A stretch of DNA of 64,000 nt from IMG/VR virus record IMGVR_UViG_3300033153_007973, positions 170,009-234,008 of that record; one strand, written 5' to 3'. The notes beneath the pieces were generated by a model. It did no database searches. It saw nothing but the letters and a program-made list of their open reading frames with translations, and was not told the DNA's origin. The DNA is from a virus. The translations under genes and the position numbers were made by a program. Positions 2,171 through 45,955 of the stretch are shown piece by piece. Position 1 is the stretch's first letter; every line of letters starts with the position of its first letter.

Positions 2171-2820
2171 GAGTGGTTCTACCATTTAAGAATCGGCCAA
2201 ACTACTTAAGATTGACTTTATCAACTATTAAGGAAGCTATGCGTAGCCGGACTGATATTAAGCTTCACCTCTTTGATGACATGTCTACGACAGCATATCC
2301 TTTAATTATAGAAGAGATGGACCTCATGATTACCAAAAACAGCACATTAGCAGGACCATATCAAGCCACTTCTAGAGCAATCAATGAAGAGTTTCTTATA
2401 TGTGAGGATGAATATCTATTCGCACTAGATGCAGACTGCATTGTCCATCCTAATATCTTTAATATTGTAGAAAATATGGTCAAAGATCTCCCAAAAATGG
2501 GATTTGGTACCCTGTTTAATACTGACACACATAAAGTTAAAGCTGGAAATAGGGACGCAAAAGGATATGTCAGAAAGGTATCTATAGGTGGGTTAGGTTG
2601 CATTATTAAAAGAGATGCTTGGGAGTGGTATCGAAAGCAGACAACACAGAAAGGCCCAAAACATAAAGGATGGGACTGGGACTTCTGTTACTGGCTCGCA
2701 ACAACAGATCAGTGGCATATCTGTAGTACAATCAATTCATATGTAGATCACATGGGCCAAACCGGTAGCCACAGTGGGCCTTCATGTGAAATCGATCGGG
2801 CAATTAGGTTCTTGGAGTAG
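2167..2820 (+). CDS. GT2-like (GT-A fold) glycosyltransferase
   Basis: The protein has 217 residues. It begins with the family 2 pattern V-V-L-P-F-K-N-R-P, continues with a D-D-M-S segment near residue 38 and has a DxD-type metal and nucleotide-sugar site (A-L-D-A-D-C) near residue 88. A C-terminal W-D-W-D-F-C segment resembles the acceptor-side acidic motif of the family. It is short and shows no membrane helix, so it is a soluble cytoplasmic enzyme. The ATG overlaps the preceding stop (ATGA), so it is co-translated with the first glycosyltransferase. Confidence 0.7.
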   Translation: MRVVLPFKNRPNYLRLTLSTIKEAMRSRTDIKLHLFDDMSTTAYPLIIEEMDLMITKNSTLAGPYQATSRAINEEFLICEDEYLFALDADCIVHPNIFNIVENMVKDLPKMGFGTLFNTDTHKVKAGNRDAKGYVRKVSIGGLGCIIKRDAWEWYRKQTTQKGPKHKGWDWDFCYWLATTDQWHICSTINSYVDHMGQTGSHSGPSCEIDRAIRFLE

Positions 2821-2823
2821 CTA

Positions 2824-3513
2824 ATGACTAAAGATGTAACAGTAACAATGACAACATGTAAGCGATTACATCTTTTCAAGAAGACTATCGCATCATTACT
2901 CGAGATGTGCGAAGACCAAGATAGAATAGCTGAATGGATAGTCTCAGATGATCATTCCCCCAAAGAACAAGTTGCAGCAATGAAGAAGCTGTATCCATTC
3001 ATGAATGTCCTTAGTTCTTCAGAGAAAGGACATGCAGCTAATCTGAACAATGTGTTTAAACATGTCAAGACACCATATGTGCTTCACTTAGAGGATGATT
3101 GGCGGTTCATCAAGAAAGGTAAGTTCATAAGCAAAGGAATCCATATCATTAAGAATACCACCAGGATAAAGATAGTCGTATTGAAACCTGGCATGGGTGA
3201 CATACCAAAGATAATCAAGGGCGAATCATGTCTCATACATCTATGGGATAAGGATGAGAATAAGGGAAAGTTTGATTACAAGAAGGCAAAATGTAAACAG
3301 TTCGGACACTACACATTAAACCCAAGTATACAATCTATGGATGCAGTTAGGAAAACTGGTCGATTCAAGAAGCCACCAAACACCGAGGGACAATTCACAG
3401 GAACATTTTCAAATCATGGATTTAAACTAGCAACACTACCACACCAATATGTAGAACATATCGGCACTGGAGCAAAGAATAGTGCTTACATTCTAAATAA
3501 GACACGGAGATAA
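2824..3513 (+). CDS. GT2-like glycosyltransferase
   Basis: The 229-residue protein starts with T-V-T-M-T-T-C-K-R, the usual first strand of family 2 enzymes. It continues with W-I-V-S-D-D-H-S near residue 38 and carries the metal site L-H-L-E-D-D-W near residue 89. There is no transmembrane segment. It lies 3 bases after the previous gene and 2 before the next. The Glu-Asp-Asp form of the DxD motif is common among family 2 proteins that build O-antigen-like chains. Substrate unknown. Confidence 0.7.
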   Translation: MTKDVTVTMTTCKRLHLFKKTIASLLEMCEDQDRIAEWIVSDDHSPKEQVAAMKKLYPFMNVLSSSEKGHAANLNNVFKHVKTPYVLHLEDDWRFIKKGKFISKGIHIIKNTTRIKIVVLKPGMGDIPKIIKGESCLIHLWDKDENKGKFDYKKAKCKQFGHYTLNPSIQSMDAVRKTGRFKKPPNTEGQFTGTFSNHGFKLATLPHQYVEHIGTGAKNSAYILNKTRR

Positions 3514-3515
3514 TC

Positions 3516-4277
3516 ATGGATCAAATACCAATGCGTTGGTGCGCGGGTCTTGCAAATTGGGGAGACATACTCTCACCATATCTAACTTCACTAATCTCTG
3601 GTAAGAAAGCAGTTTTATGTACAGACATAAGTAAGCCAAAGTACTCAGTAATTGGAAGCCAGATGAATCTTGTGGATCGTAATACCATAGTATGGGGAAG
3701 TGGATTTATGCTCCCAGCTGACAACTTCCAAAAGGGCCCACCTAAGCAAGTTCTAGCAGTCAGGGGACCCATGACCAGGCAGAGACTGCTTCAGCTCAAG
3801 GTTCCTTGTCCAGAAGTATATGGTGATCCCGCCCTTCTGTATCCAAGATACTATCATCCGAAGGTCGAAAAGAAATATGTTTGGGGCATCATTCCACACT
3901 ACGTAGATGTAAAACATCCATGGCTTAAACGATTTGTAGGTAATCCAAAAGTCAAGGTTATTGATATCACACAATCAATAAATGGATTTGTAGATGATGT
4001 GTTGTCATGTGAACGAATCGTCTCAAGTGCACTACATGGAATAATAGCTGGCGACGCGTACGGTCTTCCATCATACTGGATCGAGCTTTCTAATAAAGTC
4101 TTTGGTCAGGGATTCAAATTCAGAGACTACTTTGCTTCAGTGAGTCGCCCATCAGTCAGACTTACCCCGGATATGGGCAGACTCAAAGACATGTCTGTTC
4201 ATATGAAAGAGTATAAAGTGAACATAGATCTCAATAAACTTATGGATGCGTGTCCATTCAAGTCAAAGGACATATAA
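3516..4277 (+). CDS. Polysaccharide pyruvyl transferase-like protein
   Basis: The protein has 253 residues. Family features are N-W-G-D at about residue 13, I-V-W-G-S-G near residue 58, V-R-G-P-M-T-R near residue 83, V-Y-G-D-P-A-L-L near residue 101, and S-S-A-L-H-G-I-I near residue 171. These match the pyruvyl-transferase superfamily (PF04230), which adds ketal-linked pyruvate to exopolysaccharide or cell-wall sugars; some members act as sugar transferases. It sits between glycosyltransferases and a radical SAM gene, so it probably tailors the glycan made by this operon. Confidence 0.7.
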   Translation: MDQIPMRWCAGLANWGDILSPYLTSLISGKKAVLCTDISKPKYSVIGSQMNLVDRNTIVWGSGFMLPADNFQKGPPKQVLAVRGPMTRQRLLQLKVPCPEVYGDPALLYPRYYHPKVEKKYVWGIIPHYVDVKHPWLKRFVGNPKVKVIDITQSINGFVDDVLSCERIVSSALHGIIAGDAYGLPSYWIELSNKVFGQGFKFRDYFASVSRPSVRLTPDMGRLKDMSVHMKEYKVNIDLNKLMDACPFKSKDI

Positions 4278-19477: not shown

Positions 19478-21973
19478 TTAAGACCAGTCTCCGTTACTCT
19501 GTTGTTCCCTGGTTCTGATCTCTTTCTGTTCATCCAGGGACAGTTCTGTCATCTGGTTCATCACAGGGTTGAACTTCTGGAGTATACTACCCTTGAAATA
19601 CCCCAGCTTGTTCTTCTGAATGTCTGCATCAAGGTAAGGATATGTCCTTCCTGATGAACCATCATTCCAGGAGTACTTAGTGCCCTTTTCTCCCTTGGCT
19701 TGTAGATCATTCCATATAACCACACCTAAGTCAAGCAAATATTCTATTCTTATTGTCTCTGAAATACTGTTCAGAGTGGGCTTCCGATTGCCAGTTCTCT
19801 CAGATTTGTTCATCTCTAGCACACTAAAGACGGGCATATCATACTTGGTAGCCAGTCTCTTCAGCTGTTGAGCAGTATCCATAACGTTAGCGCGTGCGTC
19901 TCCTCCGTACGATGTAACATCCATGAAGCTATGCAGACTATCTACGAACAGCACCATTTGCCTACCGGAGAGTTCCTTCTTGTTATGGAAGACTTCAACA
20001 AGCCTCTTGATATCTACGATAGAGACAACCTCACTAGAGTCTTTTACAATGACTCTTCCATACATCTTGTTCTTCCATTGAAGCTCACCAAGTGCCATCC
20101 TTCTCATGTTGTCGAAGCCTTGTGCAACCTTCTTCAGTGATTCCTCCCTGATTTCAGGTATGGTTATGCTTCCTGGATACTTTACGTTGTTAATCGGCAT
20201 GCTCATCATGTTAGCTATAATAGCAGGAATAGTTGCTGTACTTGGATCATCAAGACTACAGTATATAATGAACGTGTCTGGATTGTTGGCTGCGATTCCT
20301 ATTGCTAAATTCCTGGTGAATGCGCTCTTTCCATGATTTGGATATCCTGCCATACCTATCAGAGCGGCTCCCTTTGGAATTTGAATATACTTATCAAATC
20401 TAGCCATCCCTGTCTTCAACATCTGGAAGCGGGCATTAACAGTAGCCTTCTCCAGTTCCTCAAGCTGCTGTGTATAATCTCTGTCATCTCCAGTAATACT
20501 ATGCTTCGTGAATGTAAAGAGTTGACTTTGTGCTTTCTCTAGCAAAAGGATTCTGTCGTTGAGCTTCATTCGTTTGCCATCGGAGATCATTTGGCTCCAG
20601 CAACTGTCTGCCTTCCCTGCAATATTATCATCTTCGACTGTTCGGATCCATTCGAATTGATCCCACATCTCAGCAAAGGGTTTTTCCAGTACATCTGATA
20701 ATTGTTGGATAGCTCGACGTCTTAGCATAGGTTGCTTCGTGTAACCTGTGAGCCATCTCATGAAATTATTGATCTTTTCGTCTTCGTCACCCAGTGGATC
20801 TTTGTTGGCAACGAATGTATTATGAATAATATACTCTGGTAGAGAGTATCTATCCAGTTTCTTGAATGCTTCGATACCCTTTGTCCGAATCATGGAATCA
20901 GGATCATCTTCTCCTGGAGGGAGGATGATCAAGTCAAGGGATATAGCCCTGTTATTCTTGAAGATCTTTTCGACTGTACCTAGCATCTTGTTCTGTCCTG
21001 TCTCATCACTGTCCAGACATAAGATGATCTTTCTGACTTCATTAGAGATCATAACAGTTAGATGGTCATCACTGAATGATACACCACCTAGTGCTGCGGA
21101 GTTTTTCAGTCCGTGCTTGTGTGCAGTTATTGCATCTGTGTATCCTTCGAAGATGTATAGTTCTCCGTTAGTTCTAGTATATTCTAAGGCTCTGTCCAGT
21201 AGGTACATAGCTGCGGACTTCTTGTATGCTTTGGTGTTATTAGTATTCAGATACTTCGGAGCTATGTTTCCAGTAATGTTTTTGTTTGCTTTCTTCTCCT
21301 CGAATAACATATCTCGACCAGCAAATCCAATCGGAGCCCCGGCTTCATCACATACTCCGAACAGTAGTCTATCTTGATGAAAGAGCTGTTTAGCAAGGCT
21401 GGATCTCGCATCGTTGGGACCGTATCCGGCACCCGCGGCTTCAATCTGTTCTTCGCTATGTGTCTTCCTGAGATGAGTATATAGTTCTCCATAGTTAACG
21501 TTGCCTATCAGATATAGCTTGGAGTCTTCTAGAGTCATGTTCCTCTGTCCTAGATATCTCTCAAGTCTCTCTGTCTTCTTGATCATATACTGGACAATAG
21601 CTTCGTTGACTTTTACTGCAGCTATCTTCTTCTTGAAGCGATCATCCAACATTGTATCATCGAAGTGAATTCCCAGGTCCTTACATAGTATGGGAATCGT
21701 CTTAGTAACGAATGCGCTACCCCTAATTGGTAGTCCATCTACGACGTTAGCCATATTAAAGATGTCATATCCTAGTCCACAACCATGACATAGAAATCTA
21801 TACTCAGGTCCGTCTCTCCAAAACGATGCCGAAGCCGCTCTGTCACCATGTTTATGAGCATTACTATTTGGGCAGCGGAAATTTTGACCGGTTGATCTTT
21901 TGACCCCTTTAAGCTCCATGTATTCAAGGAGCTTAGATTTAAGTTCTGTTTTCAGTCTTTCTATCTCAGTCAT
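19478..21973 (-). CDS. Bifunctional DNA primase-helicase (DnaG/TOPRIM + DnaB-like)
   Basis: The 831-residue protein has three parts. Near residues 29-60 is a zinc site (C-P-N-S-N-A-H then C-H-G-C) as in CHC2 primases. Near residues 270-330 is a TOPRIM region with Y-I-F-E-G-Y-T-D-A and L-C-L-D-S-D-E-T-G. From about 530 is a RecA-type helicase with Walker A G-Y-P-N-H-G-K-S near 547 and Walker B V-L-F-V-D-S near 675. This is the T7 gp4/Twinkle-like layout that unwinds DNA and makes primers at the phage fork. It overlaps the preceding gene by 4 bases (ATGA). Confidence 0.85.
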   Translation of the reverse strand: MTEIERLKTELKSKLLEYMELKGVKRSTGQNFRCPNSNAHKHGDRAASASFWRDGPEYRFLCHGCGLGYDIFNMANVVDGLPIRGSAFVTKTIPILCKDLGIHFDDTMLDDRFKKKIAAVKVNEAIVQYMIKKTERLERYLGQRNMTLEDSKLYLIGNVNYGELYTHLRKTHSEEQIEAAGAGYGPNDARSSLAKQLFHQDRLLFGVCDEAGAPIGFAGRDMLFEEKKANKNITGNIAPKYLNTNNTKAYKKSAAMYLLDRALEYTRTNGELYIFEGYTDAITAHKHGLKNSAALGGVSFSDDHLTVMISNEVRKIILCLDSDETGQNKMLGTVEKIFKNNRAISLDLIILPPGEDDPDSMIRTKGIEAFKKLDRYSLPEYIIHNTFVANKDPLGDEDEKINNFMRWLTGYTKQPMLRRRAIQQLSDVLEKPFAEMWDQFEWIRTVEDDNIAGKADSCWSQMISDGKRMKLNDRILLLEKAQSQLFTFTKHSITGDDRDYTQQLEELEKATVNARFQMLKTGMARFDKYIQIPKGAALIGMAGYPNHGKSAFTRNLAIGIAANNPDTFIIYCSLDDPSTATIPAIIANMMSMPINNVKYPGSITIPEIREESLKKVAQGFDNMRRMALGELQWKNKMYGRVIVKDSSEVVSIVDIKRLVEVFHNKKELSGRQMVLFVDSLHSFMDVTSYGGDARANVMDTAQQLKRLATKYDMPVFSVLEMNKSERTGNRKPTLNSISETIRIEYLLDLGVVIWNDLQAKGEKGTKYSWNDGSSGRTYPYLDADIQKNKLGYFKGSILQKFNPVMNQMTELSLDEQKEIRTREQQSNGDWS

Positions 21974-23436
21974 CCTGCATATCCTCTTTCATAGTAATAT
22001 GGTGAGCGCCATTCTGATATCTCCATCCTCTTCTTGTGCCACTTATACTCCAGACTTCTGCACTTATCATAGATATGTCTGAGATATCCGGGAAGGAACT
22101 TCTTTCCGATTCTTAGCTTGTAAATTATGTTCATTTCTTGTTTTATCTTGTCGATATTATTAACTGTATTATTTGTTTCACATCCTACCACCTTGGTTTC
22201 TCTTAACATCACAGCTGATTCTATAATCGAACCGATTAAAGCCATCATGTATACATTGTCTGCATAGTTAAAGTATCTGGTATCTGGACATATGAAACCA
22301 ACACAATGGCTGCACTTCGCCTGTTTTTTGGCTTCCTTTGAGTCATGGAGAAATGATACATCATTACTCGCATATTCTTTAACTAATCTTTCCATTGATG
22401 GTAAAGCAGCACCAAATATCCCAGTTGGTAGGATAACAATTGGAAAGAATGGTCTTGGTAAAATTGAACCCATTGCTAACATTCTGCGTGAGAACATCTC
22501 TGCCTCATCTGATGATCTATACCCACTGTCAGGCTTTGGAGGTCTATCGATTATCTGTCTTGTGTCTCTAGCAATATGCTTACAGTATGGAACTTTATAT
22601 ATCCATGATGGTATGGTTTGATGGTCTATCTCCTTGTTTGAGAGTGTGTGTTGCAATGTGTCCAGATTTGATAGAAGAATCGAGTTCCGACTGCTGTTAG
22701 GTTGACATACAAAATCGACCTTGGGAAAGAATCCTTTGTTTACTGCAGTTACAATTGCTTGACCTGCACTAGTGACCATTGCTTCACATACTGTGCTAAT
22801 CTTTCTATTATATCGTGTTGGATCTAGCAGTGATGTTATTAAAGCTTCTTGCATATGTTTCTTTTCGTGTGCAATGAAGAATCCAGAAAGACATTTCTTA
22901 AAGTTAGGCCTCCAGTCGCTTTGTAACCTGCTTGGTAAGTATGAAGATGCAATATTCTCCTCGTGTGTATCGATAAAGCTGCTATCTCCTGTAGTAAATC
23001 GTCTGTATCTTATGCCTCGATTACCTTGTCTCACGGGGTACTGGATTGACAAAGACTGAGATGACATCATTATTCCATGTAGGTGATCTTGTGTGTATTG
23101 TGATGATACTTGGTGAACACTATCTGATACATGAGTTCTCATTGGTCTCATAATGGGTATGATTCTGGAGCTATCTGCCAAGTTATTCATTTCTTCTGTA
23201 TTATTTGCAGCGAATTCACAGAGTCTTTGTCGATCTACAGTGCCGAAATCATTTGCTTCTATGGGAGCGATAGATCGAAATGTATTATATCCATGATATA
23301 GATATGATCGAAGTGTAGATTCTATATTACATCTTGATTGATTATACGTTGCTAACTCAAGAACTCGTACATCCTCCGTCGTGTGTTCTTCTCTTGGAGT
23401 AGCAAGAAGTGGTATAGAAACTGTTTTTATCTTCAT
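21970..23436 (-). CDS. Hypothetical protein (488 aa)
   Basis: I do not recognise this protein. It lies between the intein-bearing helicase and the primase-helicase, overlapping each by 4 bases, so it is co-translated with replication proteins and probably works with them. It has Cys pairs near residue 373 (C-S-H-C, then C-P-D) that could bind zinc, and a C-terminal aromatic, basic region (E-W-R-S-P-Y-Y-Y-E-R). The N-terminal half is rich in Arg, Ser and Gln. The ribosome site is GAGAGAGG. Confidence 0.6.
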   Translation of the reverse strand: MKIKTVSIPLLATPREEHTTEDVRVLELATYNQSRCNIESTLRSYLYHGYNTFRSIAPIEANDFGTVDRQRLCEFAANNTEEMNNLADSSRIIPIMRPMRTHVSDSVHQVSSQYTQDHLHGIMMSSQSLSIQYPVRQGNRGIRYRRFTTGDSSFIDTHEENIASSYLPSRLQSDWRPNFKKCLSGFFIAHEKKHMQEALITSLLDPTRYNRKISTVCEAMVTSAGQAIVTAVNKGFFPKVDFVCQPNSSRNSILLSNLDTLQHTLSNKEIDHQTIPSWIYKVPYCKHIARDTRQIIDRPPKPDSGYRSSDEAEMFSRRMLAMGSILPRPFFPIVILPTGIFGAALPSMERLVKEYASNDVSFLHDSKEAKKQAKCSHCVGFICPDTRYFNYADNVYMMALIGSIIESAVMLRETKVVGCETNNTVNNIDKIKQEMNIIYKLRIGKKFLPGYLRHIYDKCRSLEYKWHKKRMEISEWRSPYYYERGYAG

Positions 23437-26400
23437 GTAGAACCTCTCTCATCTGCCTTCCTGATAACCAACTGTAGGAAGTCTCTGTATGATATGTGTT
23501 TTGTCTCCTCGACTGATACGTCTTTGTCTTTCAGATATTTGTCGATCGTCTTTCTCTTTGAGGAGATAACTTCGAATTTATATTGATCAATCATAAACCT
23601 GTTGAATATTACATAGACCTCTGGGTTACCTGTCTGATCGGGCCTCAGGATTCTTCCGATAGCTTGTTCATAGAACGCTGGTGACCATGGAATATCTGAC
23701 ATGATAACAACATCAGCTTGTTCCAAATTGAAGCTCTTTCCAAGGATTCCTATGTTACCAACAGCTACACTATTTGGAGTCTTTCTGAAGTTCTCGATGA
23801 CTTTATATCTTGCTGAAGGTGTCATCTTATTTGAAAGCAAGAAAGTACTCGCTCCACTGTTCTTGAATAGATTACTAAGATCTATACTGGCTTCTGTGAA
23901 TCCTGTAAAGACTAGTACACTTCTTCCCTCACTGAGTTTGTCAATGACCAGGTCTCTTGTTACTAATTGCTTAGCTGTTGGTGTGTTCTGCCATGTTGGA
24001 TCAAGAAGTTTTGGACACTCAGAGATTTTCATCATGGCGATTAGTCGTGCTAAGCTTTTGCTTTCATCTCTGACGAATTCTCTTGAGCCATCTAGAATAG
24101 ACAGATATTGTTCGAACTGTGTATTGTTTGGTTCCGCGACAACTTTCATCTCTTTCACATTGAAACGAAACATATCGTTCTTTACCAATCCTTCATTCTC
24201 TCTGGCGACCTTGACAACCAAGTTTCGGACATAGTCCTTTGTGAATTCAGGATCTGAGCTCATCTTATCATTGATTTTTGCAAGCCTCATATTTGTTGTT
24301 GATATATTATGAACAATCTTGTATGTTGGTTCTCCCTTTTTGTCCTCTCCGAGCCTGGCTACTACCTTCTTATTTTTCCGTCTGATCTCTGTTCCTATGT
24401 GGGATATCGGAGTGGCATCGACCTTGGATACACAGCTCTTGCTACCATATCCGATCACTGCATATGTAGCTAGCTCAGCCATCTTATTAGTAATGACTGT
24501 ACCACTCATGAACATGGAGCGAGCTGGTCTTAGTCTGATCGCTGACTTTGACTTCAAAGATGTAGGAGATTTAACGTTTTGACAATTTTTGACGAGTAAT
24601 CCGTTAGCTACATAGTTGTGATTATCTCCTACGTCGATGTTGAACACTCTTTGATCTTGCTGAGGACTGTATCCAGATTTTCCATTACTTCTTTGTTCCA
24701 GAATCGTAACATTTTCCACCCTAGCATAAGCAATACGGATTCTTTCCTTTTGTCGAGATACTTCCATTTCTTTGTCTTGTGAGATTCTCCGTCTACTTCG
24801 ATTGCTATCTTCTTGTCGGGAATTGCTAGGTCGACTGCATACTTTGTCGGAAGACAGAGATCTGGTCTCTTCCTTCTGAGATTCTTTAGACCGATCTGAA
24901 ATTCCATTGGGTATCCTGTTGCTTTGTGAAGCTTCAGTTGTGGCACAGTTAACTTCCCGTTTCCTCCTCTGGAGAGAAACGTGGGGTTCTTTTTCCATCT
25001 CTTCTTTGTGCCAGCAATAGCTTTCCTCTGAAATTCTGGGTCTGCGTTCATTCGTTTCATTCGTTCTGATTGTGCTTTGAATCCAGTCTTTCGTAGAGCA
25101 GCAGTTGCTTTCTTCTTGTATTTCTTTTGTATAATGTGGAATCTCTTTTGTTGTTTTGGTTGACTGCATCGCCATTTTGCAGAACATTGCTTTCCGCAGA
25201 ATCGTGTGTTCTTGCTCTTTCTCGTTAGTCCGGTACCTAGGCTGAAGTCTTTCCCACACCACTTGCAGGTTTTTGTTATCATCTTTACACGGCGAAGAAT
25301 TCCTGCACACTTCGTACTGCAGCATTTTTGTTGTCTTGTTGATTTTGGTCTGTAATATGTGAACGTTGTTCCACATGAAGCACACTGTCTCGTTTCGTAG
25401 TTCCTTTGCCTTGACATAGCCTTTCTCCTTTGTCCAGATTTTATGGTCTGGAGTACATATGATGCTATGTCCATTATTATATTCTACTTTGACGAGGTTG
25501 TCAACATATGGCTTATGAAAATAATGTACTACGGGTTTGTATTCCCAGTTGTTAGTTTCTAAGTTCTTTGATAATGCGAGTACATCTTCTCTGTTCGTGA
25601 CAATGTCTCCAATCTTTCTTAGCCCTTTGTTTGTCATAATTTCAGTGTCATATGTGAAACACTCATCAAAGATTACCAGATCAAATAGTCCTCGTAGATC
25701 ATCACCTGTAGTATGTATCTTGTATAGGCTCTTCTGTTTCTTATCTTCATTGGACCGTCGACTCTTTATCTTTGTCTCAGCACCTAAGATCGAGTACCCG
25801 ATTAAGGTTATGGGTGTGGCATTTTCCTTGGCGAGTGGGATGTCTGTCAGCTTCTTGATGATGAAAGGTTTCTCCATCTTCAGTTTATCCATCTCTCTTA
25901 TGAATTCATTGAGAGCACCGGGTTCTACGCATACTAGTGTCCTCTTCACACCGAGTGCAAGATGGAGTCCGATTGCGATCCGAGTTTTGCCTAGGCCTAC
26001 ATCACATTGTAGTACTGAAGCCTTCTTTCTCATGGCCATAGCAATTGAATACTTCTGATGCCACTGCAGCTCTAGCTTGTGTATCTTGTTGATCTTTTCG
26101 ATCTGTCCCATGTGTGTTCTGAACAAGTCATCTTTCTCTACTTGAGCAGGTGGAGGGGACATCCATTTCTTGATGTTCCTTACTGCTTTAATAATAGTAG
26201 TCTTAGTGCTATCGTCAACGTCGAAGCCTTCTTTTTCCAAGATTCCTAGTAATAGCTCAATTCTCAGAACGGAGCCCTCAAACTTTGCTAGCTCTATTTC
26301 GAATTCATATGCAACAATGTTCACATCACATGCATCTAGTCTTTTGCGAGTGTTTCGAGCACTATTAGATTCAGGATCATCTTCCTCTGTTGTACCTTGA

Positions 26401-27185
26401 ATATTTACTGGATCAATATCTGATAGGATATGATCATTTACGACCGCAGGAAGACCATAATTGGTGGATCCGTCTAGTGCTTGACTCAATCCCTCGTTTC
26501 TTTGTTGGAATTGGTATCTATATACGTTTCCAATATATCTTCCTTGTCGACCCTCAATTGGAAAGATTCTGTTCTGAACCAAGAGAACAATTGATGATAT
26601 AAGATCCATTGGCAGAGATGTTATCTGTGCATGTTCTCTGGGTAGCCCAGGATGTAGATGTAGATTAAATGGGAATCTGATACGAAGTGTTCGTCCAGAG
26701 ACGATAGAGACTATCTTAGATTCAGCATCTATAGCAGGTTTCTTTGTGAAATATAAATAGTCGATAATCTTTCTGTTCTTGACCAGGACAACTACGCTAT
26801 TAAAAAGCTGCGGACACTTAGTCTTCGTCTTTATGCCCTTCTTAGCAGCTTTGAAATCATCTTCGTTATCGATAATGATGATAGCGTTATTGACCCGTAT
26901 CTTCTGGTCAAGTAGGTTAATCGCATTGACTCTCTCGAAATTAATATGCTTACTGAGAATCATGTCGATTCCATCTGCCGATTTTCCCACAAGGACTAGA
27001 TGATATTTTCTTGATGCGGGACCCTTAGCTTTTCGTGTAAATCCAAGATCAGTTAGATAGCTTGTAAGAGTATCCTCTTCTCGTTTAGCTTTGAGATGTT
27101 CAAGGTTATCATCAAACTCTTTAATGTCACTATCTACAGACGCTAACAGATCGTCTACAGATATAAGATCTAGATCATCTGGCAT
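23433..27185 (-). CDS. SF2/SNF2-like DNA helicase interrupted by an intein
   Basis: The precursor has 1250 residues. Removing the intein (509-867) leaves an 891-residue helicase. Walker A is C-D-V-G-L-G-K-T near 395. Walker B, V-I-F-D-E then C-Q-N, is split by the intein between Glu and Cys. The second domain has V-L-V-F-T-G-F-T near 1090 and the arginine-finger motif Q-A-I-G-R-I-L-R-P near 1172. Such ATPases move on double-stranded DNA, remodel forks or strip proteins. About 370 residues before Walker A are unrecognised. Activity should require splicing, because motif II is broken in the precursor. The ribosome site is GAGGAG. Confidence 0.85.
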   Translation of the reverse strand: MPDDLDLISVDDLLASVDSDIKEFDDNLEHLKAKREEDTLTSYLTDLGFTRKAKGPASRKYHLVLVGKSADGIDMILSKHINFERVNAINLLDQKIRVNNAIIIIDNEDDFKAAKKGIKTKTKCPQLFNSVVVLVKNRKIIDYLYFTKKPAIDAESKIVSIVSGRTLRIRFPFNLHLHPGLPREHAQITSLPMDLISSIVLLVQNRIFPIEGRQGRYIGNVYRYQFQQRNEGLSQALDGSTNYGLPAVVNDHILSDIDPVNIQGTTEEDDPESNSARNTRKRLDACDVNIVAYEFEIELAKFEGSVLRIELLLGILEKEGFDVDDSTKTTIIKAVRNIKKWMSPPPAQVEKDDLFRTHMGQIEKINKIHKLELQWHQKYSIAMAMRKKASVLQCDVGLGKTRIAIGLHLALGVKRTLVCVEPGALNEFIREMDKLKMEKPFIIKKLTDIPLAKENATPITLIGYSILGAETKIKSRRSNEDKKQKSLYKIHTTGDDLRGLFDLVIFDECFTYDTEIMTNKGLRKIGDIVTNREDVLALSKNLETNNWEYKPVVHYFHKPYVDNLVKVEYNNGHSIICTPDHKIWTKEKGYVKAKELRNETVCFMWNNVHILQTKINKTTKMLQYEVCRNSSPCKDDNKNLQVVWERLQPRYRTNEKEQEHTILRKAMFCKMAMQSTKTTKEIPHYTKEIQEESNCCSTKDWIQSTIRTNETNERRPRISEESYCWHKEEMEKEPHVSLQRRKREVNCATTEASQSNRIPNGISDRSKESQKEETRSLSSDKVCSRPSNSRQEDSNRSRRRISQDKEMEVSRQKERIRIAYARVENVTILEQRSNGKSGYSPQQDQRVFNIDVGDNHNYVANGLLVKNCQNVKSPTSLKSKSAIRLRPARSMFMSGTVITNKMAELATYAVIGYGSKSCVSKVDATPISHIGTEIRRKNKKVVARLGEDKKGEPTYKIVHNISTTNMRLAKINDKMSSDPEFTKDYVRNLVVKVARENEGLVKNDMFRFNVKEMKVVAEPNNTQFEQYLSILDGSREFVRDESKSLARLIAMMKISECPKLLDPTWQNTPTAKQLVTRDLVIDKLSEGRSVLVFTGFTEASIDLSNLFKNSGASTFLLSNKMTPSARYKVIENFRKTPNSVAVGNIGILGKSFNLEQADVVIMSDIPWSPAFYEQAIGRILRPDQTGNPEVYVIFNRFMIDQYKFEVISSKRKTIDKYLKDKDVSVEETKHISYRDFLQLVIRKADERGST
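24585..25661 (-). other. Intein (359 aa) in the helicase Walker B motif
   Basis: The splice junctions are D-E | C-F-T-Y-D-T-E-I and L-L-V-K-N | C-Q-N. Hint-domain blocks are visible: block A at the N-terminal Cys, block B with C-T-P-D-H-K-I-W-T, block F with F-N-I-D-V-G-D-N-H-N-Y-V-A-N-G and block G ending in Asn with extein Cys+1. The penultimate residue is Lys where inteins usually have His. The middle 240 or so residues in this frame are Lys/Glu/Arg/Ser/Asn-rich with no LAGLIDADG or HNH motif, because the same DNA encodes an endonuclease in another frame. Confidence 0.9.
24629..25417 (-). CDS. Nested homing-type endonuclease (Vsr-like/EDxHD family) out of frame inside the intein
   Basis: The 262-residue frame lies wholly within the intein DNA, shifted one base from the intein frame. 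The ATG has AAAGGAG seven bases upstream; a longer frame from 25474 lacks a site. Two Cys4 clusters (C12/C15/C32 or C33/C37 and C51/C54/C74/C78) form probable zinc fingers for DNA binding. A basic helical region follows. The C-terminal nuclease domain has A-V-D-L-A-I near 196, I-A-I-E-V-D-G-E-S-H near 207-213, L-D-K-R near 222 and L-G-W-K-M-L-R-F-W near 233, the pattern of Vsr-like (EDxHD/DUF559) endonucleases. It probably cleaves intein-free helicase genes to spread the intein. Confidence 0.88.
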   Translation of the reverse strand: MSRQRNYETRQCASCGTTFTYYRPKSTRQQKCCSTKCAGILRRVKMITKTCKWCGKDFSLGTGLTRKSKNTRFCGKQCSAKWRCSQPKQQKRFHIIQKKYKKKATAALRKTGFKAQSERMKRMNADPEFQRKAIAGTKKRWKKNPTFLSRGGNGKLTVPQLKLHKATGYPMEFQIGLKNLRRKRPDLCLPTKYAVDLAIPDKKIAIEVDGESHKTKKWKYLDKRKESVLLMLGWKMLRFWNKEVMENLDTVLSKIKECSTST

Positions 27186-27217
27186 TTTATCTCCTCTTGT
27201 GGTATCCTGACCGAATA

Positions 27218-28057
27218 CTACTGTTTCTTTCTTGCAACGGAATCATTGATGAACTTAGCGAACTTCGTTACTTTTTCATCTTGTGTTCCATTTTCATCAT
27301 CAACTTTCATGAATGCATATTGACCTTTGGAAGCAGGGAAACAGGTTTTTAGGTAATCACTTAAGTCATCCTTACCAAGACCATGCTTCTCTCTTAAAAG
27401 CTTGATTTTCTCAGAGTTGATTTCAGACATGGATGGACCTGTCTTTGCTGGTGCTGATTCATCAATAGGTTCGGGATCATTTTGAGGCAAAGTATCATCT
27501 GGACCATGCCATAGATAAATACCAAAGCCATAATTGTTCGATGCTTTCCGTATGGCATTAGCAAGAGCTGTCTTGGTCATCTTATCAGAGTCCAAATTCC
27601 TTTGACCGCTATTTGTTCCGCTACCAGTACCTGGGCGTCGGCAAATCTCAGTACCTTCATTGTCTCTAAGAACTAAGTCAAGAGATACAAATGCTGCACT
27701 TTCTGTGACATGAATTCTTTCCTTCCTCGGAAAGTTCTTTACTTTGCCATTCTGCTGCTCAAGTTTCATCCAGTCCAGCTTTCCATTCTCAAGTCTAACT
27801 TCCTGCATGTATGAGAAGGATACGTCTTTCATGGTCTGTTCTAAGTTTTCGACAGACCAATGAGTGCCGAAACGTTTATCGAATTCTTCAATCGTGACCC
27901 AGATTGGGATATATGTGAGCTCTATATCTTCCATCTTCCTGGTGTCTTTGTTGTATTGCTTAACCTTCCTGGATTGCGTTCTCTCCTTTGGAAGCGGATC
28001 TGACAGTCCAGCAACTGCATCCATGATTTGTTCTCGATTCATTGATTTATTCTCCAT
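27218..28057 (-). CDS. Rad52-like single-strand annealing protein
   Basis: The start behind AGAGGAGG is chosen; a longer frame starts inside NrdG. The 279-residue protein has Y-I-P-I-W-V-T-I near residue 50 and H-W-S-V-E-N-L near 66. Its core is A-A-F-V-S-L-D-L-V-L-R-D, then R-P-G-T-G-S-G and K-T-A-L-A-N-A-I-R-K-A-S-N-N-Y-G-F-G near 165-185. This order (beta core, G-x-G loop, A-x-x-x-A-I/L-R-K-A helix, G-x-G-x-x-L/Y-L) is that of the Rad52/Sak-type annealing family. It would anneal complementary strands in recombination-dependent replication. The NrdG stop lies one base before this ATG. Confidence 0.65.
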   Translation of the reverse strand: MENKSMNREQIMDAVAGLSDPLPKERTQSRKVKQYNKDTRKMEDIELTYIPIWVTIEEFDKRFGTHWSVENLEQTMKDVSFSYMQEVRLENGKLDWMKLEQQNGKVKNFPRKERIHVTESAAFVSLDLVLRDNEGTEICRRPGTGSGTNSGQRNLDSDKMTKTALANAIRKASNNYGFGIYLWHGPDDTLPQNDPEPIDESAPAKTGPSMSEINSEKIKLLREKHGLGKDDLSDYLKTCFPASKGQYAFMKVDDENGTQDEKVTKFAKFINDSVARKKQ

Positions 28058-28058
28058 C

Positions 28059-28772
28059 TTATCCTCCTCTAATATGAGTGTCCGCATGAACACTACTTGC
28101 TATCTCCAGAAATGGGAGCAGTGCACCCTCTGGTGTTGATTGAATATTATCGCCCTCTACTTGCTGATATGGCTGTAGATAGTAAGGGACTTCGTCTGGT
28201 ATTAGTCTTGCAATTGCTCTGATGATCCTCTCGTTCACATAAAGAGGATGACATGTTGTTCTGATCTCGTACTGGAAATCTAACGATGTACGATAGTTTT
28301 CCATTACATCTAAGCTAGATATGATTTGCTTCCAGTGTTTGGCTTCATATCCTTTTCGATTTTGTCCTGCTTGTGGATATGTCTTGATATCCATTGCGAC
28401 ATAATCGATGTGAAGTCTGGTTATCACATATGATAATCTGTCAGCATATGTACCATTTGTATCTAGCTTAACCATTAAGCCAAGTTTGTGTGCCTCCAAT
28501 GCAATGGTTTGAATCTCATTGAATGATGAGCATGGGGGTTCACCGTGTAATGGTTCACCCCCGGTTATCACAACTGCATCGATAAGATCTTTGCTCTTTC
28601 TCATCCGGTGTATTACTCTTCTCATTTCTATTGATTCCACAACTTGTGGCATTCTTGCGAGTGCCATGTTGTGACAGTATGTACATTTTAGGTTGCATCC
28701 CTTCATGAAGATCACCATAGCTGGTAAGCTAGGGTAATCAACAAGAGAGAGGTTTGTTATTGCTCCTACCAT
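28059..28772 (-). CDS. nrdG: Anaerobic ribonucleotide reductase activating protein (radical SAM)
   Basis: The 237-residue protein has the cluster motif C-N-L-K-C-T-Y-C-H-N near residue 26 and the SAM-binding V-V-I-T-G-G-E-P-L near residue 69. NrdG-type activases use a 4Fe-4S cluster and SAM to put the glycyl radical on NrdD. Its size and N-terminal L-S-L-V-D-Y-P-S-L-P segment match the longer bacterial activases (NrdG2/PflA-like). It lies 15 bases downstream of the nrdD stop in the same direction, as expected for a working pair. Confidence 0.85.
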   Translation of the reverse strand: MVGAITNLSLVDYPSLPAMVIFMKGCNLKCTYCHNMALARMPQVVESIEMRRVIHRMRKSKDLIDAVVITGGEPLHGEPPCSSFNEIQTIALEAHKLGLMVKLDTNGTYADRLSYVITRLHIDYVAMDIKTYPQAGQNRKGYEAKHWKQIISSLDVMENYRTSLDFQYEIRTTCHPLYVNERIIRAIARLIPDEVPYYLQPYQQVEGDNIQSTPEGALLPFLEIASSVHADTHIRGG

Positions 28773-28787
28773 GGATTACTCCTTCAA

Positions 28788-30908
28788 TTATGCTGGTAGG
28801 CAGTATGTTCTTCTGTCTCCATACTCGCTTTTCTTTCCGTCATTCCAGCTACTGACCGGTCTGTAATAACCAACCACTCTTGAATAGACATTCACTATAG
28901 CGATACATCCTTCGTGTGGACATTTATGATGTTCGCCTTTTAGATATCCATGTTCTTCGCAGATCGTAAACGTTGGTGTGATTGAAATATATGGTAACTT
29001 GTACTTCGAAGTGATCTTCTTGATGAGACCTGCTAATGCTTCTGGGTCTGGCGCACTTTCACCTAGGAATGAATGAAGCACAGTACCACCGGTGTAAAGA
29101 CACTGTAACTCATCTTGATGATCTAGTGCCTTAAACAGATCATCTGTGTGTCCTACAGGTAGATGTGTTGAATTAGTATAATATACAATCTTGTCTCCTG
29201 CATGAGCAGCTTCGGCACCAAACGATTTCTGATCTGCTTTTGCTAGTCTGTAACATGCGCCTTCTGCTGGTGTTGCTTCTAGATTATATAGATTTCCGGT
29301 AGTGACTTGGAATTCTTGTGTGATTTTCTTCATGAACGTGAGTGTCTCTATAGCTAATGCCTTTCCGGCTTTGGTTTGTATCCCATCTCCCAGGAGATTG
29401 AGACATGCTTCATGCATACCTACTAGACCAACTGTTGAGAAATGGTTTGTATAATATGCACCACTCCGTTGTTTAATTGATCTGAGATAGAACTTAGAAT
29501 ATGGATAGAGTTCTCTATCCATTAGATCTTCTAAGATCTTGCGTTTAATCTCTAGACTATCTCTTGCAACTTCCATATATGCTTCAACGTTTTCAAAGAA
29601 CTCTTCTTTATCACTTGATATATAAGCGAGTCTTGGTAGGTTAAGTGTGCATACTCCGACACTTCCTGTTAATGGAGCAGATGCAAAGATACCACCAAGT
29701 CTCTTCCTGAGTTCACGATTATCGATAGAAATTCGACAACACATGCTGCGAATATCTTCAGGTTTTATACCTGAGTTTACCATATTAGCAAAGTATGGTA
29801 CGCCTAGTTTTGCTGTCATTTCCCATACCTTTTTTGCCGCGGGAGAATCCCAGATGAATTCATCTGTAATATTATAAGTTGGGATCGGGAAGGAGTGAAT
29901 AGCACCCCTTGAGTCACCCTCCATCATTGTTTCTGCGAAAGCGATATTGATCATCTCCATCTCTTTCGCACATTCTTTATATGTGAAATCCATCTGTTTG
30001 CCACCAATGATACATGGTCGATCGGCATACAGTGATGATGGCACCATGTCCATCGTGATGTTCGAGAACGTTTGTTGAAACCCAGTTCTCAGTGGCGAGT
30101 TCATATTGTATACGAACTCTTGAATGCCTTGCTTTACTTGCTTCTGGTTTAGTCCATCCTTCTTGATGAATGGAGCTAATAGTGTATCAAAGTTCGAAAG
30201 CGCAACAGCTCCTGCAATTTCTCCTTGGAGCATGTATAGGAAATTCATTATTTGACCAAGGATAGATGAGAAATGAGTTGCTGGTCCAGAAATTGTCTTC
30301 TGTGGAACACCTGTGATACCAGTCATTAGAAGATCTTCCAAGTCCCAACCGCAACAATAACACGCAAGTGATCCAAGATCATGAATATGTATATACCCAA
30401 ACTTATGTGCATCTGCTATCTCAGAAGGATAAATTCTATCCAACCAGTATTTAGCAGTAGTGCTGCTCGATAGATGGTTGTTTAATCCTTGAAGTGAATA
30501 CGTCATGTTTGAATTCTCTTTGACGCGCCAGTCCTTTGCGCCTAGATAATCATCCATGACTTGCATAGTTTCAGAGAACAGATTGTCGATCTTCTTCAGT
30601 CTCTTCTCTTCTGCTCTCTCGAGAATGAATTTCTTTGCTACGTTCTTGTGTTCTGAATTTAACAGAACTTCTTCAATGGTATCGCTTATCTGATTACCAC
30701 TGGGTGTTTCCTTCTTGTCTTTTGTGAGTGTTTGTGTTACTAAACCAGCTATATTTTTCGAGAATGTCTTTGGTCCCTTTACCTTGCAGGATGCAGCAAG
30801 TTTTAGAATCTTGTTTCTGATATGGTCTTCTTTATACTTGGCGATCTTACCGCTATGTAGTCTCACTCGTCTTGGGGCATAGTCCTTCTTAGTTTGCTGT
30901 GCGCTCAT
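28788..30908 (-). CDS. nrdD: Anaerobic (class III) ribonucleoside-triphosphate reductase
   Basis: The 706-residue protein has an N-terminal ATP-cone (about 15-100: R-L-H-S-G-K-I-A-K-Y). The catalytic barrel has A-C-Y-C-C-G-W-D-L near 188 and G-S-V-G-V-C-T-L-N-L-P near 417. A C-terminal zinc site has C-E-E-H-G then C-P-H-E-G-C near 655, followed by the glycyl radical loop R-V-V-G-Y-Y-R-P near 680. It makes dNTPs from NTPs without oxygen, with formate as the usual reductant. This points to replication in an anaerobic host. Confidence 0.92.
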   Translation of the reverse strand: MSAQQTKKDYAPRRVRLHSGKIAKYKEDHIRNKILKLAASCKVKGPKTFSKNIAGLVTQTLTKDKKETPSGNQISDTIEEVLLNSEHKNVAKKFILERAEEKRLKKIDNLFSETMQVMDDYLGAKDWRVKENSNMTYSLQGLNNHLSSSTTAKYWLDRIYPSEIADAHKFGYIHIHDLGSLACYCCGWDLEDLLMTGITGVPQKTISGPATHFSSILGQIMNFLYMLQGEIAGAVALSNFDTLLAPFIKKDGLNQKQVKQGIQEFVYNMNSPLRTGFQQTFSNITMDMVPSSLYADRPCIIGGKQMDFTYKECAKEMEMINIAFAETMMEGDSRGAIHSFPIPTYNITDEFIWDSPAAKKVWEMTAKLGVPYFANMVNSGIKPEDIRSMCCRISIDNRELRKRLGGIFASAPLTGSVGVCTLNLPRLAYISSDKEEFFENVEAYMEVARDSLEIKRKILEDLMDRELYPYSKFYLRSIKQRSGAYYTNHFSTVGLVGMHEACLNLLGDGIQTKAGKALAIETLTFMKKITQEFQVTTGNLYNLEATPAEGACYRLAKADQKSFGAEAAHAGDKIVYYTNSTHLPVGHTDDLFKALDHQDELQCLYTGGTVLHSFLGESAPDPEALAGLIKKITSKYKLPYISITPTFTICEEHGYLKGEHHKCPHEGCIAIVNVYSRVVGYYRPVSSWNDGKKSEYGDRRTYCLPA

Positions 30909-43050: not shown

Positions 43051-45498
43051 TTATAGTATGTTGCCGGAGACATCAAAGATATCTACCAGCTCTATTGCTT
43101 CTTGATCCTCATTTGTCATGTGGATCAAGTCTCCAAGTATACGCTCTACCATCTCGAAGTAATATTCGTTATCGATTCTACCTAACTGAGTAGAATCGTG
43201 GACATTAAGTGGTTCATATTCTTTCTTCCCAGTAAGTGGGCTCTTCACGACGATGTACTCTAGTACATCGCCTCCACTGGGAGTGAATCCGAATAATGTT
43301 TGGTACTGGTTTACCAAGCTTACTACTAAACTTGATGATGATGTTGCTACTCTATCAGCAAATGTTGATGTAGCATGCATATTGAAGTTATCATCATCCG
43401 AGAGTGCCTTGATCTTTCCTCCTGTCATACCATAATCTTCGACGTTCTTTGACATTCTCATCGAAAGCATATAGTCTTCAACTGGTAGGTTAGCAAAGTC
43501 TAGAGACTGAGTTTTGCATTGTTCAGCTGTAAGAGTTTCATTAATAGCATAATCTGTTAAGAAATTTACTGCTCGTCTGTGTACAGCAGCTGCCTTTGAT
43601 GATTTAAATGCTGCACCATGCTTAATGATCTTACCACCTTTTTCTCTGACAATGTAGTTCTTCATCTTGTAGAAGTATCCAGCATCAAACTCTTCTTCTT
43701 CGAGCTCAAGTTTGTTATCTGTGATACCAAACTTTGTTTTAACTATCTCTTGTATATATGTGTTGATTTCCTTAACCGGCAAATCTGCTGTCGTGATAAC
43801 ACCATCAGTATCTACTTCTATTACACATTCTGGTCCGGATTTATCTCGGAGGAATTGCATAACCTCCTTAAGAAAGTATCTACCCATGCCAGTAATTGTA
43901 ATACCTATAGGAAGGTATCCAATGGTGTATCTGTTTGCAAGAATACCATATGCTGAATTGGCACACACCTTTATATACCACTGCTGTGAATCTAGCTTCT
44001 GGAACTTGATGTCACCTTTCTCAAGTCCCTTGATCTCTTCCTTAAGCTTGCTTCTTTCATCAAGTAAGCTATCAAGCATCTTTGGAACCATGCCTCTCTC
44101 TGATAGATCAATGTGAACTACGATGGTTCTCTTTAGGATTTCATCTGGAATACCTAGGATTAACTCATTATTCTGTTCGTCTTTGTTTATTATAAAGTCT
44201 TCTTGATAAGAAAGAATATCATTGATGGAATCGAACCTTACTGTTTCGTAGCTAAGGTTAAACGTTTGGATCAAGGAGGGATACAGTGATCTAAAATCAT
44301 ACTTCTTCATGTTCTTGATCTTACCTGTTCGATAAATACCTACGAGAGCTCCTTGGAAGTCTTTACTGAATCCGTTTTCTAGTGAGAGTTTATAGAACTC
44401 ATCATAATATCTGGAGTAATTATTATCAACCGCAATGATATCGCTCTTTAGCATCTCTTTCATCATATGAAGTGTCGCAATACCACCACTAGTGCGGCTC
44501 ATAATTTGTCCCAAGGGAACATTTAGTTTCTCAGCGAACTCTATGTTCTGTCCTATGTAGACTTGTTCAAGTCGTTCTGTGATGTTAACATCTGATGTGA
44601 GATACTCTCTGAGTTCGCTTCTGCCGGATTCAGTCTTCATCATATCCATGATGTTTTTGATACCTGTCTCAAGTTCAATGATGGAGTCACTCTCTTTGTC
44701 AGTAAGAAAGTACTTGGCTAGTGTCTTCATCTTCTTGTTTTCGAGACCCATCAGCTTCTGGTCTTTCATAACATCAACTGCATATATATCATAGCTTAGT
44801 CGGCCAGCCATATTAGATCGAGCGTTCTTTCCCTCAGTCATAGCTAGTATCTTAGTGAGGTGATCTCCTGGTATTGTAATTCCTTCATCAGGTTTGAATC
44901 CCTTTCGGATGAAAAGTTCATTATGTGGAACCTTGCAGATTTCCATTCTTGTTCTAAGATATGGAATATCAAACTTCCATCCGTTATATGTGACAATAAT
45001 GTCTGGGTCTAGTTCATTGATCTTACTCATGAAGTCTCGTAGTAACTGAGTATCCTCCATGCCTTTGGCTCTCATATCAAAGCTGTCAAGAATAGTAACA
45101 TCCTTGTCTCCAGACATCTTGTATCCTATCATGGCTGCAGCATTGCGCTCTGCCCGCGGGAACATACCAGAGCCGTCGGATGCTACCTCAATATCTAAGC
45201 GCATGATCCTGGGTTCTCTCTCCCATGTAGCTTTCTTTACAAAGTCAGGATTTGTGACATATAGGTGAGCCATATATCCAAATGGATAGGATGCACATTG
45301 TTTAGACCAATCTCTTAGTGAGAGCATTCGTTCATTGACTTGTTTCCATCCGCGACCAACGACAAACGCACTCTTGTCTCCTACTTCTACGATGTCATAC
45401 TTTGGTACTTTGGGGGGATGAGTGATAGCAATAGTACCATCTTCTTGGACAATATGTAAGAGATCTTGGAATGGAAAGATGTTAAGAGGTACTTTCAT
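43051..45498 (-). CDS. Family B DNA polymerase with 3'-5' exonuclease
   Basis: The start behind GGAGAAGG is chosen; the frame is open for 114 bases more but those codons overlap the previous gene. The 815-residue enzyme has exonuclease motifs R-L-D-I-E-V-A-S near 101, Y-N-G-W-K-F-D near 185 and Y-L-T-S-D near 290. Its polymerase motifs are A (Y-D-F-R-S-L-Y-P-S near 400), B (K-V-C-A-N-S-A-Y-G near 513) and C (E-V-D-T-D-G near 561, with Gly where Ser is usual). It is the phage replicative polymerase. It overlaps the upstream gene by 17 bases. Confidence 0.92.
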   Translation of the reverse strand: MKVPLNIFPFQDLLHIVQEDGTIAITHPPKVPKYDIVEVGDKSAFVVGRGWKQVNERMLSLRDWSKQCASYPFGYMAHLYVTNPDFVKKATWEREPRIMRLDIEVASDGSGMFPRAERNAAAMIGYKMSGDKDVTILDSFDMRAKGMEDTQLLRDFMSKINELDPDIIVTYNGWKFDIPYLRTRMEICKVPHNELFIRKGFKPDEGITIPGDHLTKILAMTEGKNARSNMAGRLSYDIYAVDVMKDQKLMGLENKKMKTLAKYFLTDKESDSIIELETGIKNIMDMMKTESGRSELREYLTSDVNITERLEQVYIGQNIEFAEKLNVPLGQIMSRTSGGIATLHMMKEMLKSDIIAVDNNYSRYYDEFYKLSLENGFSKDFQGALVGIYRTGKIKNMKKYDFRSLYPSLIQTFNLSYETVRFDSINDILSYQEDFIINKDEQNNELILGIPDEILKRTIVVHIDLSERGMVPKMLDSLLDERSKLKEEIKGLEKGDIKFQKLDSQQWYIKVCANSAYGILANRYTIGYLPIGITITGMGRYFLKEVMQFLRDKSGPECVIEVDTDGVITTADLPVKEINTYIQEIVKTKFGITDNKLELEEEEFDAGYFYKMKNYIVREKGGKIIKHGAAFKSSKAAAVHRRAVNFLTDYAINETLTAEQCKTQSLDFANLPVEDYMLSMRMSKNVEDYGMTGGKIKALSDDDNFNMHATSTFADRVATSSSSLVVSLVNQYQTLFGFTPSGGDVLEYIVVKSPLTGKKEYEPLNVHDSTQLGRIDNEYYFEMVERILGDLIHMTNEDQEAIELVDIFDVSGNIL

Positions 45499-45955
45499 CA
45501 TCCTTCTCCAGTATAATTGTATCTGTAGTCTGTATGATATACTCTGGATCCATGATGATATCCCGAACATTAATAATACCATCATCTGGAGAAATATTAC
45601 ATGCTGTACCAAGAATATTCTTAAGATTCCTAAGAGTAACAGATTTGAATGGAATAACTTTGTCTCCCATCTTCATCATCATTCTGAGTGTTTCCTTATC
45701 CTTCCTGAAGTACACAGACACTGTATCATTGTTTTCATTCATCTGTACAGGAAGGAAGTTTATACTAATGTCATTTCCTTCTGGAGATTTCCTATAGTAT
45801 AAGAGGACTTGAGTTCCATCACTTACTACCATTAAGCGAGCATACTCTTCTCCACCATAAAGACGAACCTTCATAAAGCTCGTTACATCTGAGCCAGTCA
45901 TATCTCCATCAAGAATATCATAACAGGTGCTAGCTATTTTCTCCGTTATTCGCAT
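45482..45955 (-). CDS. Hypothetical protein (157 aa)
   Basis: The start behind AGGAGATC is chosen. I do not recognise the family. It looks beta-rich (V-R-L-Y-G-G-E, R-L-M-V-V-S-D-G-T-Q-V-L-L-Y, I-S-I-N-F-L-P-V) with a helical, acidic C-terminus. It overlaps the polymerase gene by 17 bases and may be a polymerase accessory, but this is context only. Confidence 0.5.
   Translation of the reverse strand: MRITEKIASTCYDILDGDMTGSDVTSFMKVRLYGGEEYARLMVVSDGTQVLLYYRKSPEGNDISINFLPVQMNENNDTVSVYFRKDKETLRMMMKMGDKVIPFKSVTLRNLKNILGTACNISPDDGIINVRDIIMDPEYIIQTTDTIILEKDDESTS

Follow-up and report, generated by a model that had tools for sequence, protein, structure and literature searches.

An endonuclease gene nested out of frame within an unbroken intein of a viral helicase gene, with relatives in phages and bacteria

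The endonuclease of a mobile intein is thought to be either an in-frame domain of the intein or, in fractured genes, a protein encoded between the split halves. The locus described here raises the question of whether an endonuclease can also be encoded as a separate gene, out of frame, inside an intein that is still whole. The DNA that we analyzed, referred to here as the window, comprises the last 64 kb of a 234-kb virus record. Its genes, which encode a DnaG-DnaB-like primase-helicase (19478-21973), a Rad52-like protein (27218-28093), an NrdG-like radical SAM protein (28059-28772, recognized by eye), NrdD (28788-30908), and a family B DNA polymerase (43051-45612), point to a large phage with an anaerobic nucleotide-reductase set.

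Anatomy of the nested gene

The window contains a single open frame of 1250 amino acids (23433-27185, minus strand) that the ORF list and Pfam identify as an intein-containing precursor of an SNF2/SF2-type helicase, with a Helicase_C match of E=6.6e-15 and a weak ResIII match. The intein (24585-25661, minus strand) is 359 codons long, matches Pfam Intein_splicing (E about 9.8e-12 to 8.5e-11), and interrupts the helicase in frame in the Walker B motif, after D-E (FDE|C...N|CQ). It begins with Cys1 (25661-25659), carries the block B TxxH as TPDH at residues 70-73 (T70-P-D-H73), ends with Asn359 (24587-24585), and is followed by a Cys as the +1 extein residue; together with the in-frame splicing domain, these are the features by which an intein is recognized. 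C1, H73, and N359 are invariant among the 50 relatives in the intein family alignment (A4). The penultimate His of block G is absent from the window intein, which has Lys358, and the relatives have mostly His and in some cases Ser. This His is common in inteins and is not an absolute requirement. The Lys before the terminal Asn may make splicing of the window intein slower.

Wholly inside this intein is a complete gene of 262 codons (24629-25417, minus strand) whose product matches DUF559 (Pfam, E=1.5e-14). It lies one base off the intein register (1768 mod 3 = 1) and is thus in the +1 frame. All coordinates of this nested arrangement, as proposed in a first-pass annotation of the sequence, checked out, as did the gene's own AAAGGAG ribosome binding site, which we located at 25425-25431 (read 25431-25425 on the minus strand), 7 nt before the ATG. 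The same annotation had placed the two ends of the gene in conserved intein blocks. For the stop codon (24629-24631, minus strand) this is correct, since it falls at intein residue 345, within block F (VFNIDVGDNHNY in the intein frame); the start, in contrast, lies at residue 82, nine residues past the block B histidine (residue 73) and after block B proper.

The encoded protein has a Cys-rich, zinc-ribbon-like N-terminal part followed by a C-terminal Vsr/DUF559 nuclease domain. Its AlphaFold model (pLDDT 90.7) was matched by Foldseek to the catalytic domain of I-Bth0305I (3r3p) with a probability of 1.00 and a TM score of 0.68 to the target, and profile searches returned 3hrl (E=2e-12) and 3r3p (E=4.5e-4). 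The EDxHD catalytic-type residues are E207, D209, H213, and D222 (24752-24799, minus strand). In an alignment of the endonucleases (A3), D209, H213, and D222 are invariant and E207 is kept in at least 90%. By its Vsr/PD-(D/E)XK fold and its conserved E, D, H, and D, the endonuclease is of the EDxHD (Vsr-like) type.

Because EDxHD and HNH endonucleases often ride in group I introns, such a gene could also sit within a self-splicing RNA intron nested in the intein. We consider this extremely unlikely. An Rfam search of positions 22000-28800 for group I or group II introns returned nothing but a chance snoRNA match, with no intron match even at E<=1; the intein frame is open through the whole segment, for which an intron would have no need; and a motif at the C-terminal end is coded in both frames, as described below.

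Relatives with the same layout and selection on the two frames

Relatives were fetched by endonuclease sequence, independently of whether any frame was open. Querying cultured phages with the endonuclease by tblastn gave matches in 40 records. Each match was covered by an annotated gene, and many of these genes were named helicase. At nine inspected loci, which include Corynebacterium phi673, Pseudomonas MR14, and several Vibrio phages (CP-T1 among them), the match was offset by +1 from a helicase ORF that is unbroken and contains intein blocks. A profile scan of viral contigs yielded 252 relatives, and among the best 80 of these, 75 were within an intein, one of them on a contig with the window's own identical element. 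The offset was +1 in all 75. Scanning bacterial genomes added 34 further complete examples (bacterial or prophage, from named species or MAGs), again all +1, with Longilinea arvoryzae, Azospirillum canadense, and Ktedonobacter racemifer among them; the other bacterial matches were short DUF559 proteins without an intein. The host genes encode P-loop NTPases that are interrupted at or beside the Walker B motif, namely SF2/SNF2 helicases, helicase-methylases, and DNA polymerase III delta-prime-like clamp loaders. The offset was 1 in every element, in contrast to the in-frame endonuclease of a canonical mobile intein. The first-pass proposal of a separately started endonuclease, with its own ribosome site, out of frame in an unbroken intein is thus borne out by conservation at over 100 loci, all of which have it in the same frame.

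This constancy bears on the idea that assembly or sequencing indels pushed an ordinary in-frame endonuclease domain out of frame. In-frame versions do exist, as shown by a DUF559 endonuclease at offset 0 within the intein of a C5 DNA methylase (L005 4140-6299). However, the same offset at more than 100 independently assembled loci, completely sequenced isolates included, contradicts an origin by error, to which we give practically no credence.

A minority of loci departed from the nested layout. Five of the 80 viral relatives (L058, L061, L089, L092, and L098) had no intein nearby. L157 (3854-5919) has a free-standing endonuclease immediately ahead of an SF2 helicase that lacks an intein and has DESHH as its Walker B motif, L133 has an endonuclease without an intein, and L134 retains an endonuclease beside a degenerate remnant of the intein C-half. 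Only the C-half of the intein was present in L140, L192, and L194, the last two of which are at contig ends. These exceptions have the appearance expected of decay of or escape from the nested element, of free-standing relatives, or of contig ends, and none of them had a nested layout in another frame. The first-pass annotation had set against its own proposal homologues with a broken intein frame, or with an eroded endonuclease frame beside a conserved intein frame. The few loci in which the intein is absent or degenerate are free-standing or decayed copies, and the mini-inteins described below are ordinary endonuclease loss.

The position of the endonuclease stop codon varied among 64 elements, mostly being 8, 20, 23, 44, 50, or 65 nt before the intein end. 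These discrete distances presumably reflect where a +1 stop is tolerated by blocks F and G. At one locus (L079 3724-4777), the nested endonuclease appears to end 37 nt past the intein, in the C-extein.

For 64 non-redundant elements, we reshuffled each endonuclease synonymously with the codon usage of the host gene. The intein frame contained 0 stops, compared with 978.5 expected. In the window element alone, the intein frame had 0 stops versus 18.3 expected (P<0.0005), in agreement with the earlier observation that it stays open across the endonuclease, and the third frame held 15. Across the 64 elements, the third forward frame had 1261 stops against 904 expected, which is above the synonymous-shuffle expectation. 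A stop in the intein frame requires an endonuclease codon ending in T before AAN, AGN, or GAN. At these stop-making places, T was found in 0/1099 of the codons ending in T or C (1099 C), compared with 2867/4544 (63%) elsewhere in the same endonuclease genes and 3091/6042 (51%) at the same kind of place in exteins. The open intein frame is maintained by selection.

These counts contradict the view that only one frame is real, with the intein frame open by chance or composition and the helicase either inactivated or made as two split-intein pieces, in that stops are absent and stop-making codon pairs are wholly depleted. There is precedent for split inteins with EDxHD endonucleases in fractured genes, and Vibrio phage 1.238.A has a split form, there with an HNH endonuclease. 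Against this precedent, the splicing residues and the block F strand are conserved, and the window and each of the 75 intein-bearing viral relatives (from the best 80 of 252) have both intein halves in one frame; we found no halves in separate frames and no fractured case among these relatives. We regard a single functional frame as very unlikely.

The two frames are constrained in different places. We scored single changes in both frames in eight close pairs, some of which share a member. In the middle region, 209/268 changes were silent for the endonuclease and 222/268 altered the intein frame; the endonuclease is under purifying selection. Since the +1 overlap makes most endonuclease-silent changes alter the intein frame, dN/dS of the intein frame was excluded as evidence for the middle, and codon-identity profiles and paired-frame counts were used instead. 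At conserved endonuclease residues before residue 228, codon identity was ~1.0-1.1 times that expected from codon usage, with no excess codon conservation across the middle (intein residues ~100-310). From residue 228 to the end, which covers the last ~35 codons, the ratio was ~1.5x, and intein-silent changes rose from 46/268 in the middle to 16/40 in this zone (Fisher P=0.002). Both frames are under constraint in this terminal stretch of the endonuclease gene. Here, at 24693-24724 (minus strand), the same bases encode LGWKMLRFWN of the endonuclease and the intein strand RVENVTILEQ; as a pattern, the bases for LGWKxLRFxN encode the strand RVExVxIL ahead of block F.

The intein-frame reading of the endonuclease (intein residues ~100-310; 24732-25364, minus strand) is predicted by AlphaFold to be a disordered linker, with pLDDT mostly 41-54 and little structure, compared with 86-98 in residues 1-100 and ~95 in most of 311-359, the splicing halves. 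The 210-residue middle of the intein frame is an unconstrained linker that must only stay open. The expectation that both frames would be under purifying selection thus holds throughout for the endonuclease and, for the intein, in its two splicing halves and over the ~35 codons with which the endonuclease ends; the rest of the intein frame shows stop avoidance only, not constraint on its amino acids.

Expression and movement of the element

In 61 elements, we compared the nearest ATGs with the other ATGs inside the elements, counting ribosome-site matches of at least 5 nt. Such sites preceded 24/61 of the nearest ATGs (39%) and 6.4% of 1170 others (Fisher P=1.9e-12), and some elements have no clear ribosome site. 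A stop codon lies in the endonuclease frame <=12 nt ahead of the chosen start in 16/64 elements; entry by frameshifting would have little space there, and internal initiation is favored. Judged by these sequence features, the endonuclease is probably made by internal initiation.

The alternative is programmed ribosomal frameshifting, in which ribosomes translating the intein N-half would shift into the +1 frame and produce a fusion; the endonuclease would then in effect be a recoded in-frame domain. Internal ribosome-site-like sequences can also stimulate frameshifting, and in the window the endonuclease frame is open for some distance upstream of the ATG. However, the upstream stops in the 16 elements would confine the shift to the same few codons each time, ATG starts with ribosome sites are strongly enriched, and the intein frame lacks any stop at which ribosomes would pause. 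We consider frameshifting improbable and favor, with high confidence, a mobile intein whose homing endonuclease is a separate overprinted gene instead of an in-frame domain.

Splicing, internal translation, and cleavage are predicted steps in the life of such an overprinted element. Ribosomes starting at the helicase ATG would read through the whole element and produce a helicase-intein-helicase precursor. The intein halves (residues 1-~98 and ~311-359) would fold together, splice, and free the helicase, while the residues read out of frame from the endonuclease gene would loop out of the folded intein as a disordered linker. Ribosomes starting at the internal AAAGGAG-ATG would produce the 262-residue endonuclease, which would cut intein-free helicase alleles at the Walker B codons, and repair of the cut allele would copy the whole element in.

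Homing predicts that occupied and empty alleles exist. When we looked for a close relative of the window's helicase without an intein, only the contig with the identical element came up, and we therefore drew on related phages. The helicases of CP-T1 and vB_VchM-138 are 96.4% identical, and vB_VchM-138 lacks exactly the 1059 nt, or 353 codons, of the CP-T1 intein. The sequence is DE|CHH in the occupied allele and DEAHH in the empty one, as co-conversion would give. At this one helicase site, looking also at the phages around Vibrio phage 1.194.O, alleles are empty in vB_VchM-138, 234P10, and 1.024.O, hold mini-inteins of ~150 residues without an endonuclease in K389 and K459, and carry the nested element in CP-T1, 1.194.O, and K391; this distribution, seen in the sequences, is consistent with homing. 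In Vibrio phages PS65A.1 and 13VV501A (L123 and L124), the helicase has a second insertion, at Walker A, with intein-like ends (GK|C...N|T), which coexists with a mini-intein at Walker B.

Distances between splicing domains and between endonucleases are correlated (Mantel r=0.66), and a correlation is also present against the exteins (r=0.68-0.73). The result is therefore compatible both with the element moving as a unit and with vertical descent inside host gene families. Free hopping between host genes was considered and rejected: the endonuclease tree places all 18 clamp-loader elements in one clade, and jumps between host genes are thus rare.

A second case and comparison with known systems

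The nested layout is not confined to EDxHD endonucleases. In terminase large subunit inteins at six loci (L006 and L111-L115), the +2 frame contains a nested HNH_3 endonuclease (E=7.8e-13); in L006, the terminase with its intein spans 1417-3771 and the HNH gene 2895-3572. Phages TJE1, Highwayman, and LS06-2018-MD07 (loci L207, L208, and L211) have the layout as well. All of these HNH terminase inteins have 0 intein-frame stops, with individual P0 values of 0.0005 to 0.13 and modest significance in several. A relative of this HNH lies in the fractured terminase of Vibrio phage 1.238.A (L209 1-3077), arranged as TerL-IntN stop, HNH, IntC-TerL, and another is free-standing beside the terminase genes of Acinetobacter BP10. 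Nested, split, and free-standing forms of one endonuclease family therefore coexist. The HNH is unrelated to the EDxHD endonuclease, and its +2 layout arose separately from the EDxHD +1 layout. The first-pass suggestion of a third way to build such an element is supported for the nested EDxHD gene, which is real and is joined by the similarly placed HNH genes in terminase inteins.

The nearest published precedents are fractured genes and, without an intein, the out-of-frame HNH of ShiLan. Fractured genes reportedly consist of a host enzyme gene with intein halves and an EDxHD/Vsr-like endonuclease gene between them. They share with the window element an interrupted host gene, intein halves, and an EDxHD/Vsr-like endonuclease, but their intein is in two separately made pieces with a free-standing endonuclease, whereas the window has an unbroken frame with an overlapping one. 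Fractured genes (Dassa et al. 2009, NAR 37:2560) are cited in PMC3653736. The ShiLan domain and the Pacc40 insertion encode an HNH out of frame within inserted sequence that leaves the reading frame of the host gene unbroken, with no intein splicing domain, no detectable ribosome site, and no predicted splicing (PMC11855218). The window element likewise has an out-of-frame endonuclease in an insertion with the host gene open and, unlike ShiLan, has a complete intein around the gene, a ribosome site, and a DUF559/EDxHD nuclease.

Other systems resemble the element in part. I-Bth0305I and other EDxHD homing endonucleases have the same nuclease fold and E/D/H/D pattern; I-Bth0305I is intron encoded, whereas the window endonuclease is in an intein and has an added Cys-rich N-terminal part. 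Canonical mobile inteins have the same intein blocks and homing logic, and in L005 the same nuclease class, but their endonuclease is read in frame, as a part of the intein polypeptide. STALEMATE constructs also overlap two reading frames, of an intein and a meganuclease, but are engineered, sequence-entangled constructs in which the meganuclease is the extein (PMC12455656). A paper on crAss-like phage inteins (PMC7886860) describes no endonuclease out of frame in an intact intein. The first-pass annotation knew of no described case; we likewise found none inside an intact intein in the literature searched, and an earlier mention in work on fractured genes or actinobacteriophage inteins is possible. 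An out-of-frame HNH in a gene without an intein has been published, as noted above.

Taken together, it is likely that nested, frame-shifted endonuclease genes are a third, widespread mobile-intein architecture that arose independently on two or more occasions (EDxHD endonucleases in the +1 frame of Walker B inteins in helicases and clamp loaders, and HNH endonucleases in the +2 frame of terminase inteins), related to fractured genes by simple stop gain or loss, and entangling a selfish gene with an important host gene. The selfish element would consist of two overlapping genes, one functional throughout its frame and the other free except at its ends, and would lend itself naturally to tests of how overlapping genes evolve. 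The overprinted form is present in cultured phages and is open to direct test there. It is also a possible route between intact and split inteins, and in many phages, an annotated "helicase" conceals an unannotated endonuclease.
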